This document shows, one piece after another, positions 16,756-31,836 of a stretch of 64,000 nucleotides of DNA. A program made the position numbers and the translations under genes. Source of the DNA: Pseudanabaena sp. M085S1SP2A07QC (GTDB lineage: Bacteria; Cyanobacteriota; Cyanobacteriia; Pseudanabaenales; Pseudanabaenaceae); assembly GCA_020404895.1 (NCBI GenBank), contig JADBWK010000057.1, positions 62,001-126,000 on the forward strand, written 5' to 3'. The notes beneath the pieces are model-generated. The model did no database searches and was not told the DNA's origin. It was given only the letters and a program-made list of their open reading frames with translations. Position 1 is the stretch's first letter. The number at the start of each line of letters is the position of its first letter.

Positions 16756-17454
16756 CTAATTGAACGCTACAGTTCCCTCAGCACATGTTGGAGTCCCATT
16801 TTGGAGAAATGGATTTGCTAGCTTTTGCTTTACACCAATTTTGGAAGATTCACAAAGGATAGTGACTGTAGTTAGCTCTTTTTTTGTGTTTGGCGTTGAG
16901 CCTGATGTTGAATTTATCTGTTGATTTGACCCTTGAAGTTTTTTATCTCGGTCAGGGACAACAAACACCGCGCTGACAAAACTTTTTAAATCGTCATTCT
17001 TGGGAACACCATAATGATAGGCAACAAGCTCAAAACTTTGTAAATCATACTTGTAGTTAGCTGTCTCTTCTTTAATGCCAATTTCCAAAGCAGGAATTGA
17101 GCGCCCCAAAGCTCCATTTTCTAGCCAAAAAGCTTGCTGCGCTCTACCCATACTTCCTACATAAGTTCGAGCTTCGCTACTCCTAGCTTTTGTCCCACAA
17201 CTAAAAGATGATCCCAGAAATGCTATAGCTCCTATTGCAATTAACCCAAATCCCAACAAGCCATAAATTGACCAACGAAATAGCTGTCGAGATTTTTTTT
17301 GCTTTTGTGGCGCAGTATCTTCTTGAAACAAATCAGCAAGCAAACTAGTTTCCTCATCCACTTCTGAGAGTTCGATGGCATTAGATAGTATTTTGTCTAG
17401 TAGGAGATTTATTTGCTCTACATCAGATTGTTTTGCCTTAGATTGTCCAATCAT
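16756..17454 (-). CDS. Type IV pilin-like G/H family protein
   Basis: About 232 aa from the ATG at 17454, chosen because AGAGGTG lies at good spacing before it. A cytoplasmic segment (1-75), a membrane helix (about 80-103, LLGFGLIAIGAIAFLG) and a domain opening with EARTYVGSMGRAQQAFWLENG match cyanobacterial 'pilin-like G/H' proteins. The prepilin-peptidase FTLIE motif is absent, so it is not processed like a pilin. A Thr/Ser/Asn-rich stretch (SNQQINSTSGSTPN) precedes the end. Function unknown. Confidence 0.65.
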   Translation of the reverse strand: MIGQSKAKQSDVEQINLLLDKILSNAIELSEVDEETSLLADLFQEDTAPQKQKKSRQLFRWSIYGLLGFGLIAIGAIAFLGSSFSCGTKARSSEARTYVGSMGRAQQAFWLENGALGRSIPALEIGIKEETANYKYDLQSFELVAYHYGVPKNDDLKSFVSAVFVVPDRDKKLQGSNQQINSTSGSTPNTKKELTTVTILCESSKIGVKQKLANPFLQNGTPTCAEGTVAFN

Positions 17455-17498
17455 TATGATCACCTCTTGTGCGGACTTAACTAATACTGCCCTGTTAC

Positions 17499-17538
17499 CT
17501 CACAAAGGAATGCGATCGCGATCGCATTCCTTTGTGAG
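17499..17538. repeat. Perfect 40-bp palindrome with nested HIP1 sites
   Basis: The two 20-nt arms are exact reverse complements with no loop. The centre is GCGATCGCGATCGC, two overlapping HIP1 octamers, and the outer ends are CTCACAAAGGAAT and its complement. Confidence 0.95.
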
Positions 17539-17586
17539 AAGTATTACAAAATTTGTGCTTGATGTCTTGGGGACTTACACAAAGTA

Positions 17587-17643
17587 ATAAATCCCCAAAA
17601 TATAGTGACGGGTTAAGCCCGTCACTATATTTTGGGGATTTAT
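17587..17643. repeat. 26-bp perfect stem-loop element
   Basis: Arms 17587-17612 and 17618-17643 pair perfectly around the loop TTAAG. The central GGGTTAAGCCC design recurs in the element at 31750-31798. Confidence 0.9.
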
Positions 17644-17997
17644 ATAGATCATTTTTTCTTGGAGTTCACTAGGTGTAAATGCTTAGTCTATTGAACTCAA
17701 TAATGCATTAATCTTTGATCCTTAAAGCATTTTTGAATGACTGGATTTAGTCCTGCTATTATTGTTAGTTAAATATATTAATTTATTGACCTCTATCTCC
17801 AAAGAGATATATCTAACAACCCTTAACATTTTTTTAAGATTTGTTGTCGAATATATATACTTTATGGAATTGGTTCAAACCTTTTTCTAGAGAGGGTTTG
17901 AAGCTCTTAAGTATTTTGTAAGAAGGCAAACGTAAAGATGTGTTAAGCTAATTTCAAATCCATATAAATACTAGTAGTTAAAGCAGGATTTAGAATT

Positions 17998-19065
17998 ATG
18001 ACCATTGCAATGGGCAGGTCGCAAGAAGTCGAAAGAGGCTGGTTTGACAGCATCGACGACTGGCTAAAGCGCGACAGATTTGTATTCATCGGCTGGAGTG
18101 GCTTACTGCTATTCCCCACCGCATTTTTAGCAGTTGGTGGCTGGTTCACAGGCATCACATTCGTATCATCTTGGTATAGCCACGGACTAGCTTCTAGCTT
18201 CCTCGAAGGCTGTAACATTCTCACTGTAGCAGTATCATCTCCTCCTCTTAGTGTTGGACATTCTCTAGTACTACTATGGGGACCTGAAGCGCAAGGCGAC
18301 TTCACCCGTTGGTGCCAAATTGGAGGACTATGGACATTCCTAGCACTTCATGGCGCTTTTGGCTTGATTGGCTTTATGTTGCGTCAGTTTGAAATTGCTC
18401 GTCTAGTCGGTATCCGTCCTTATAATGCGATCGCATTTTCTGGCCCTATCGCTGTATTCGTATCTGTATTCTTGATGTACCCCTTGGGTCAATCTGGTTG
18501 GTTCTTCGGCCCAACATTCGGCGTAGCTGGCATCTTCCGCTTCATTTTATTCTTACAAGGTTTCCACAACTGGACTTTGAACCCCTTCCATATGATGGGC
18601 GTAGCAGGTATCCTTGGTGGGGCATTGCTCTGTGCTATTCACGGTGCTACCGTTGAAAACACATTGTTTGAAGATGGCGATGGTAAAACTGCTAACACCT
18701 TCAAAGCTTTTAACCCAACTCAGTCTGAAGAAACTTACTCCATGGTTACAGCTAACCGCTTCTGGAGCCAAATCTTCGGTATTGCTTTCTCCAACAAGCG
18801 TTGGTTGCACTTCTTTATGTTATTCGTACCAGTAACTGGACTATGGTTCAGTAGCGTTGGTATTGTCGGATTAGCATTGAACTTGCGTGCCTATGACTTC
18901 GTATCTCAAGAAGTTCGTGCAGCAGAAGATCCTGAATTTGAAACTTTCTACACAAAGAACTTGCTTTTGAATGAAGGTATCCGTGCTTGGATGGCTCCTC
19001 AAGACCAACCAGCAGAAAGATTTATCTTCCCTGAAGAAGTTTTGCCTCGCGGTAACGCACTATAA
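17998..19065 (+). CDS. psbD: Photosystem II D2 protein
   Basis: This 355-aa D2 core subunit binds P680, pheophytin, QA and the non-haem iron in the thylakoid membrane. Key ligands are kept: TyrD Y161, H190 (its partner), H198 (P680), H215 and H271 (iron), and H118 (peripheral chlorophyll). It is 3 aa longer than the usual 352, with one extra residue near the N-terminus and a 2-residue insertion (KT) in the stromal D-E loop. Several normally fixed positions differ from typical D2: PLSV for ADAF at 84-87, DF for NL at 101-102, C106 for Phe, T113 for Pro, and G167, G171 and T173 for Ser, Ala and Ser near TyrD. psbC does not overlap its end. It may be a paralogue rather than the only psbD. Confidence 0.95.
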
Positions 19066-19076
19066 ATTTGAAGCTA

Positions 19077-19110
19077 AAAAATTGCTTGCAGCTTATTGCA
19101 AGCAATTTTT
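19077..19110 (+). terminator. Terminator-like hairpin between psbD and psbC
   Basis: A perfect 14-bp stem (AAAAATTGCTTGCA) with a 6-nt loop ends in TTTTTT, 11 bp after the psbD stop. It would separate psbD from psbC transcription or stabilise the psbD mRNA 3' end. Confidence 0.75.
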
Positions 19111-19282
19111 TAAGGATAATTGCAAAATTTAGCTATCAGAAATCAGTACGGTTCTACTAGGTTTTGGATTATGATGAATTTCATCAAACTTCTAAACGTT
19201 AGCAGTTAACAAGCTGATAGCTGATAGCTTAAAAATTATTTGCACTTTAAACCTATAAAAAATTTTCTGGAGATAACCTCTC

Positions 19283-20674
19283 GTGACGACGACCATTAAC
19301 TTAAACTCGCTAGGAGTGGGTGGACGTACACAGGATACATCGGGCTTTGCTTGGTGGTCTGGTAACGCAAGACTCATTAACCTTTCTGGCAAACTGCTGG
19401 GCGCTCACGTAGCTCATGCTGGTTTAATCGTATTCTGGGCTGGCGCAATGACTTTGTTTGAAGTCGCGCACTTTATTCCCGAAAAGCCAATGTACGAGCA
19501 AGGCTTTATCCTTCTTCCTCACATGGCAACTCAAGGCTGGGGAGTTGGTGCTGGTGGTGAAGTTGTAGATATTTTCCCTTACTTCGTGGTTGGTGTATTA
19601 CACCTTATTTCTTCGGCAGTACTTGGCTTTGGTGGGATTTACCATGCCTTGCGTGGACCTGAAGTCTTAGAAAACTATTCTTCATTCTTTGGTTACGACT
19701 GGAAAGACAAGAACCAAATGACAAATATTATTGGGTATCACCTGATAATATTGGGCTGCGGTGCATTGCTACTCGTATTTAAGGCTATGTTCTTTGGTGG
19801 TCTCTACGATACATGGGCACCTGGTGGTGGAGATGTACGTGTAATCACCAATCCAACGATCAATCCTGTTGTCATATTTGGCTATGTTTTCAATTCACCC
19901 TTTGGCGGCGAAGGAAACATTATTGGAGTTGACAATCTTGAAGATGTAGTGGGTGGGCATATTTGGATCGGTTTGATCTGCATCAGTGGCGGTATTTGGC
20001 ATATCCTTACCAAGCCTTTCGGTTGGGCTCGTCGCGCCCTTGTTTGGTCTGGTGAAGCTTATCTTTCTTACAGTCTTGGTGCATTGAGCTTTATGGCTTT
20101 CATTGCTACCTGCTTTGTATGGTTTAACAACACAGTTTATCCTAGTGAATTCTTTGGTCCTACTGCTGCTGAAGCTTCTCAATCTCAAGCTTTCACCTAC
20201 CTTGTTCGCGACCAAAAGCTAGGTGCAAACATTGCAACTTCTCAAGGCCCTACTGGCTTAGGTAAGTACCTGATGCGTTCTCCTTCAGGTGAAATCATCT
20301 TCGGTGGTGAAACCATGCGTTTCTGGGATTTCCGTGGTCCTTGGTTGGAGCCTCTTCGTGGACCTAGCGGTTTGGACATTGATAAGCTTAAGAATGATGT
20401 ACAACCTTGGCAAGTGCGTCGCGCTGCTGAGTACATGACACATGCTCCTTTGGGTTCCTTGAACTCAGTTGGCGGTGTTATCACTGAAATCAATGCAGTA
20501 AACTTTGTTTCTCCTCGTTCTTGGTTGGCTACTTCCCACTTCGTATTGTCCTTCATGTTCTTAGTTGGTCACCTATGGCACGCTGGTCGGGCTCGCGCGG
20601 CTGTTGCTGGCTTTGAAAAGGGTATTGACCGTAAGACTGAGGCTGTACTTTCTATGCCTGATCTCGATCAATAA
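19283..20674 (+). CDS. psbC: Photosystem II CP43 antenna protein
   Basis: This 463-aa CP43 has six membrane helices with conserved chlorophyll His residues and the large lumenal loop E motif [20 protein letters not shown], whose Glu and Arg contact the Mn cluster. Start is GTG 19283, with GGAG 9 bp before it. Most of the chain is close to standard CP43, with a few unusual positions such as Asn in GGEGNII, where Trp is usual. In cyanobacteria psbC normally starts inside the 3' end of psbD; here it lies 217 bp downstream behind a hairpin and must have its own translation start and perhaps its own promoter. Confidence 0.95.
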
Positions 20675-20680
20675 ACAATA

Positions 20681-20783
20681 ATACTAATTCACAAAAATGT
20701 GACAACACTTTTGTGAATTAAAAATAAAACTCTGTAAGGGTTTAAAAAACACAAAATGGCTATGACATTTTGTGTTGTGGTAT
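20681..20783. repeat. Composite MITE-like hairpin element
   Basis: It contains an AATTCACAAAA...TTTTGTGAATT hairpin (20685-20720), a GTAAGGGTTT segment and an AACACAAAATG...CATTTTGTGTT hairpin (20749-20776). The same modules in reverse order make up the element at 49404-49516. Confidence 0.75.
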
Positions 20784-20808
20784 AAGAGGCAGCTTGTCGC
20801 ATCTTATC

Positions 20809-20851
20809 CACAAAAAGAAAGGCAGTGCTTAGCACTGCCTTTCTTTTTGTG
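20809..20851. terminator. Bidirectional terminator between psbC and the PSRP-3 gene
   Basis: A perfect 20-bp stem (CACAAAAAGAAAGGCAGTGC) with a TTA loop has A and T tracts on both sides, serving the convergent genes. Confidence 0.85.
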
Positions 20852-20867
20852 ACTTTCGCGATAATTA

Positions 20868-21167
20868 CTAGTTACTACCAGTAAATATGACATCAGGGAA
20901 TTTACCTTGAGCTTCTGTCATGGGGCGGTTTTTACCCTCTTGTTGCCAGTAATTAATTACTTCGGTTGCCTTATTTAAAATTTCAATTCGATCTTGATCG
21001 GCAATCCAAGGCTTGCTTTCCATTTCTGTTTTAAGTTGATCCCAAGCATCATCACGGGGCCAAAAGAAATATTTGGTGAGAGGACTGAAACCTTTGCCTA
21101 CGACCTGATCGACAGCAAGAGCTACATTATTTTCTAACCATAAGATTTTTAGAATAAACTGGGACAA
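20868..21167 (-). CDS. 30S ribosomal protein PSRP-3 (Ycf65)
   Basis: This 99-aa protein matches the Ycf65/PSRP-3 family ([43 protein letters not shown]), a plastid- and cyanobacteria-specific component of the small ribosomal subunit. The length is normal. It stands alone on the minus strand, convergent with psbC and divergent from the HAD gene. Confidence 0.9.
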
Positions 21168-21227
21168 TGCTACCTACCTCCAAGAAAAGTTAAATTACAT
21201 ATTAAAGTAGCGATCTTGCAATATAAC

Positions 21228-31706: not shown

Positions 31707-31749
31707 ATAGATTTTTATACCAATTTTTATACCAACGCGATCAATATAA

Positions 31750-31798
31750 AGCCCAAAAATATGGTGGTGGGCTAAGCCCGCCGCCATATTTTTGGGCT
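31750..31798. repeat. Stem-loop element with GGGCTAAGCCC core
   Basis: Arms 31750-31772 and 31776-31798 pair with two G-T mismatches around a TAA loop. It follows the same design as 17587-17643. Confidence 0.8.
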
Positions 31799-31836
31799 CA
31801 ATTATTTTGTGTAAGTCCCTTACTAGAAAAAGTTAA

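Follow-up and report, generated by a model that had tools for sequence, protein, structure and literature searches.

Family-wide loss of the psbD-psbC overlap in Pseudanabaena and its relatives, and a conserved RNA structure ahead of psbC

In overlapping psbDC operons, the Shine-Dalgarno sequence and GTG start codon of psbC are written in synonymous codons of the D2 tail. The overlap has been described as conserved in published surveys (PMC8047818) and, in a later paper, as a feature of "most cyanobacteria and all plastids" (PMC9325196). The locus studied here raises the question of why, in a Pseudanabaena genome (4.8 Mb, 190 contigs, 99.7% complete), psbC starts well past the end of psbD, and what the sequence between the two genes might be for. 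We analysed the locus within a 64,000-nt stretch of this genome, hereafter the window, to which all coordinates refer. An earlier note on this DNA had placed the psbC GTG 217 bp past the psbD stop and offered two explanations: either the lineage had rearranged its operon, or the pair was a second copy beside a canonical psbDC elsewhere. The features of the locus are as follows.

17998..19065, + strand: psbD (D2), an open reading frame; the single strong match and only copy in the genome
19033..19065, + strand: psbD tail, GAAGAAGTTTTGCCTCGCGGTAACGCACTATAA; by sequence and codon table, lacking both internal motifs, GAGG and CGTGG, through which an overlapping psbD provides the ribosome-binding site and start of psbC
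19075..19112, + strand: terminator-like hairpin with a 16-bp stem, a loop of 6 and a T-run within the 3' arm; the stem persists among species while its sequence is replaced
19129..19244, + strand: candidate leader RNA of psbC, conserved and structured, with an outer stem (19131-19229), an inner hairpin of the TGATGA-N3-TCATCA type and, next, an AT-rich conserved linker
19245..19268, + strand: conserved linker 5' of the psbC ribosome-binding site, holding a putative -10-like TATAAA (from the alignment)
19269..19272, + strand: psbC Shine-Dalgarno GGAG, 10 nt before the GTG
19283..20674, + strand: psbC (CP43), GTG start, with its own leader peptide; only copy in the genome

Both the sequence and the open reading frames confirm the 217-bp distance (19065 to 19283), so that psbC does not start within the psbD 3' end as it does where the genes overlap. 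Genes, gene order, strand, GTG start and the position of psbC directly downstream of psbD are the same as in the canonical psbDC of cyanobacteria and plastids, whereas the window has a 217-bp spacer in place of an overlap of ~17 nt, a separate ribosome-binding site, a different CP43 leader peptide and no internal start signals in psbD. The layout thus amounts to a variant of an operon already known. The whole spacer is strongly structured, with a predicted fold of −63.4 kcal/mol versus −38.4 kcal/mol for shuffled sequences (z = −6.4; 0 of 200 shuffles as low). The reading we favour, at a probability of about 0.72, is a derived uncoupling shared by the whole family, in which the spacer of Pseudanabaena combines a hairpin at the end of psbD with a leader RNA of psbC.

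To compare genomes, the gap was expressed as the number of nucleotides between the stop codon of psbD and the conserved FAWW codon in psbC. A gap was present in 26 of 26 Pseudanabaena genomes and in all 11 measurable relatives (i.e., those with both genes on one contig) from six other genera of the family. This distance came to 263-293 nt within Pseudanabaena and to 143-328 nt across the six other genera, versus 31-46 nt, equivalent to the ~17-nt overlap, in nearly all other cyanobacteria examined; the statement of the earlier note that psbC usually starts inside psbD is therefore accurate for nearly all other lineages sampled. Specifically, the overlap is present, with GAGG...CGTGG, in family f44, which we infer to be Gloeobacterales; its PsbC is 71-73% identical to the query and lies on the longest inner branch, the deepest, of the PsbC tree. 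Since this deepest branch and nearly all other sampled cyanobacteria carry the overlap, the gap is derived, and the opposite polarity (an ancestral gap with the overlap as a late invention) was rejected. The overlap is old and was lost in the Pseudanabaena family, where the gap is real and clade-wide. Of the two explanations first offered, it is thus the rearrangement of the operon in this lineage that the family-wide gap bears out. The earlier note had also considered that the layout might be normal for the clade and the overlap absent from all relatives: the gap is indeed not unusual for Pseudanabaena, but the overlap is found outside the clade.

We noticed two irregular psbD genes during this comparison. 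At locus L198 (G037, contig C34), psbD comes in two pieces that overlap, with a TAG inside, probably through an assembly error or a frameshift, and an apparent in-frame insert in psbD of G034 was a run of N in the assembly.

The signals formerly embedded in psbD have decayed. Among coupled genes, the second Glu of the D2 tail is encoded by GAG in 109 of 111 and Arg-Gly by CGTGG in 110 of 111, whereas uncoupled genes retain GAG in 1 of 43 and CGTGG in 9 of 43; because related sequences are counted many times in this codon table, the contrast is descriptive, though near complete. The psbD tail of the window reads GAA...CGCGG and thus holds neither the embedded GAGG Shine-Dalgarno nor the GTG. 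Every family spacer listed carries GGAG ~10 nt before a GTGAC start, and the CP43 leader peptide encoded from there replaces the VVTLSN/VETLFN-type leader that the overlap encodes elsewhere. With the overlap lost, the usual coupling arrangement is lost as well, and the view that translation coupling has disappeared agrees with the gap, the missing internal Shine-Dalgarno and GTG, and the separate ribosome-binding site. Judged from these sequence features, the best-supported reading is that psbC would be translated from its own site, no longer tied to termination on psbD. Although the two genes overlap in tobacco, psbC is there translated largely independently of psbD in vivo (PMC8133689), suggesting that uncoupling may cost or change little. 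Around the new start, the Shine-Dalgarno and a CTC just before the start codon (GGAG..CTCTC, 19269-19283) are predicted to pair weakly, with a pairing probability of about 0.9, and this potential to pair is conserved in Pseudanabaena and some other genera.

Separation of psbD and psbC has also occurred in at least four lineages besides the Pseudanabaena family. Gaps were found in f26 (G214, G297), in genus g9 of f2, in f4, in f11 and in the far-red psbD-psbC copy of G211; within f2, another genus has overlapping psbDC. The uncoupled FaRLiP clusters and these scattered lineages share with the window an intergenic gap, a separate ribosome-binding site where checked and, often, a psbD tail of the GAA...CGCGG form. 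In contrast, f26, f2 g9, f11 and f4 stand apart from the Pseudanabaena family in the PsbC tree, their spacers are unrelated, and the RNA element described below was matched in none of them. In f11, a copy of the psbD tail (GGAGGTTCTACCGCGTGGTAACGCTCTCTAA) precedes the psbC start, from which it follows that the gap there arose by duplication of the overlap. Parsimony on the PsbC tree, a quick tree, gives five changes of state, of which well-supported branches force only one. At loci L186 (G136) and L187 (G166), the 3' tail of psbD is duplicated ahead of psbC, which makes an intermediate of overlap loss visible, and in G166 the relic tail is decaying (CGT to CGA).

The first component of the spacer in the window is the hairpin. 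It comprises 16 consecutive pairs (19075-19090 with 19097-19112) around a loop of 6 and starts 9 nt past the psbD stop. The earlier note had reported a perfect stem at this place, which is present, although with 16 pairs rather than 14 and at 9 nt rather than 11 from the stop; its T-run exists (TTTTTT) but sits inside the 3' arm, paired with an A-run. As in Rho-independent terminators, a hairpin with A-run and T-run arms lies just past a stop codon, with a stable 16-bp stem and six T on the 3' side. It differs from them in its low GC content (4 GC pairs), in a T-run that is paired within the 3' arm instead of following it, and in the closeness of the following gene, which has the same orientation and starts only 217 bp from psbD. 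A hairpin occupies the same place in 24 of 25 distinct spacers of the genus, most with z between −3 and −11, and its sequence is wholly different between species groups (e.g., AAAAAATTGCTTGCA, AAAGATTTTGTACAGCTT, CAGAAAATTTATACGGCGC). A shape retained while its sequence is replaced suggests that selection has favoured a hairpin here, for instance as a terminator or to stabilise the 3' end, and the hairpin most likely ends or trims psbD transcripts. Termination cannot be essential, because the hairpin is missing in G010 (P. cinerea) and weaker, without a T-run, in G016, G020 and G025.

The second component lies between this hairpin and the linker. Positions 19129-19244 have a mean column identity of 86% across the genus Pseudanabaena, and their consensus fold contains 33 pairs, in which 98.9% of cells pair; sliding the partner columns leaves no more than 46% paired. 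Consensus folding gives an energy of −24.9, compared with −5.1 (sd 2.4) for column-shuffled alignments, none of 300 being as low, and the sequences folded singly give z of −4.4 to −8.0. Double compensatory change was seen in only two pairs, a count reached by 163 of 500 shuffles; support for the fold therefore comes mostly from one-sided changes that preserve pairing. In paired columns, Watson-Crick pairs changed to G·U in 25 events and to A·C in 4 (p = 5 × 10−5, on a simple distance tree and with a structure from the same alignment, which favours G·U somewhat). Overall, structure on the sense strand is conserved beyond sequence, with few double compensatory changes, and the comparative evidence indicates that an element of about 100 nt folds as RNA on that strand.

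The same features can be read differently. The element could be a DNA device (an operator, a MITE or a cruciform), in which case a separate promoter in the spacer would drive psbC and the dyads would be protein-binding sites. The genus alignment does show a conserved inner dyad, TGATGA-N3-TCATCA, together with conserved TATGAT and TATAAA hexamers, and the outer arms are inverted repeats. We nevertheless consider this explanation unlikely: the excess of G·U over A·C changes is unlike what a DNA-level dyad would leave, and no consensus fold of similar stability exists for the minus strand (−8.3 versus −24.9). Moreover, among the promoter matches listed, none of the sigma-70 type falls on the + strand of the spacer, the region overall having no more matches than shuffles, and the element has one copy per genome, unlike the multi-copy palindrome upstream of psbD. 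That palindrome (17592-17638) is near-perfect, with arms of 20+ bp, and resembles a MITE-like repeat; about ten degenerate copies exist in the genome, one at about 31739-31819 of the window. A mobile element (MITE or repeat insertion) in the spacer itself was rejected as well, since neither BLAST nor the covariance model found a second copy of the spacer in the genome.

A psbC leader RNA, the identity we regard as most likely, also fits the distribution of the element. Using a covariance model on one class-wide draw, we found one sense copy per genome in 16 of 16 genomes of the genus and in 0 of 178 others, always between psbD and psbC. Antisense matches coincided in place with the sense ones, as a shadow of the dyad, apart from a weaker one elsewhere in G012 (E = 0.001). 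A compact, structured, intergenic element that is conserved as a unit might alternatively be a separate small RNA gene acting in trans and placed in the spacer by chance, but we find this improbable, as no terminator follows the element on the + strand. In most species the element keeps almost the same distance from the psbC start, and the linker and Shine-Dalgarno are conserved together with it, which suggests a leader.

The leader candidate has no match in Rfam: cmscan of 17400-21200 with E up to 5 returned no psaA, PhotoRC or psbNH motif. The psaA (RF01752), PhotoRC-I/II (RF01716/7) and psbNH (RF01753) motifs are likewise candidate structured RNAs at cyanobacterial photosystem genes, at least the psaA motif being located in a 5' leader (PMC2864571); the element differs from them in its gene (psbC), structure and lineage. 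Lying just before psbC, it is a conserved RNA structure that had not been described, with a putative regulatory role, and constitutes the new part of this work. The earlier note had passed over it. Spacers from three other genera of the family (L030/L105, L103/L196, and L195 of G005) contain a shorter hairpin with arms GCTATC or GCTGTC and GRTAGC, and the similarity of the arms provides a lead that a simpler form of the element may predate Pseudanabaena.

Two further candidates were rejected. A small ORF (ATGATG...) in the element does not behave as a peptide leader, given that its reading frame is broken in G028 and G031 and that the differences are mostly non-synonymous. An IsrR match (RF01419, 174 bits), antisense to psbC on the minus strand at 19700-19886, does not identify an Rfam leader; it is probably a cross-match and an annotation trap, because a protein search of the genome found no isiA, and isiA and psbC are homologous.

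That the pair might be a divergent extra copy, with a canonical overlapping psbDC elsewhere, would be in keeping with the two psbD genes of most cyanobacteria sampled as complete genomes, yet it can be dismissed with near certainty because the genome search proposed in the earlier note returned one psbD and one psbC in a 99.7%-complete assembly (the next-best matches being a weak D1-like fragment and a psbB-like gene) and the one-contig finished congeners G014 and G029 likewise have one of each, uncoupled in both. Taken together, the first interpretation of the locus stands as regards overlap loss and lineage rearrangement, and falls as regards the second copy.

Derived uncoupling with a two-part spacer can be pictured as a sequence of steps. 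An insertion or expansion between psbD and psbC in the ancestor of the family would have moved psbC downstream, where it would then have acquired a GGAG ribosome-binding site of its own together with a new leader at the N terminus; afterwards, the psbD tail would have lost the synonymous codons formerly serving as the psbC start site. In Pseudanabaena, the hairpin past psbD most likely ends or trims psbD transcripts, and the sense-strand element would form the 5' leader of psbC on transcripts arising by read-through, by processing in the AU-rich linker or from a promoter of their own. The leader most likely tunes the stability or translation of psbC mRNA, so that CP43 would be made apart from D2.

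Every genome of the Pseudanabaena family has just one psbD, while two are present in most complete genomes from other lineages. The data are compatible with the idea that early ends of psbD transcripts may give a single-psbD family an independent output of D2 for repair; in the same vein, the second, free-standing psbD of other cyanobacteria might be the counterpart of early psbD termination here. Some uncoupled lineages carry a pair of psbD genes and some coupled ones a single gene, so the link between single psbD and uncoupling is not strict. More tentatively, and with the odds against it, the element could represent a new class of cis-regulatory RNA confined to Pseudanabaena that controls CP43 synthesis; with a single psbD, leader RNA and hairpin would then have replaced translational coupling and would set the D2:CP43 ratio by light, redox or assembly state.

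A family without the overlap, traces of the decay of its start signals, and at least four further separations constitute natural experiments on what the overlap is for. In addition, a candidate regulatory RNA emerges from the spacer, attached to a core gene of photosystem II, and culturable strains allow testing; the leader RNA candidate merits experiment.
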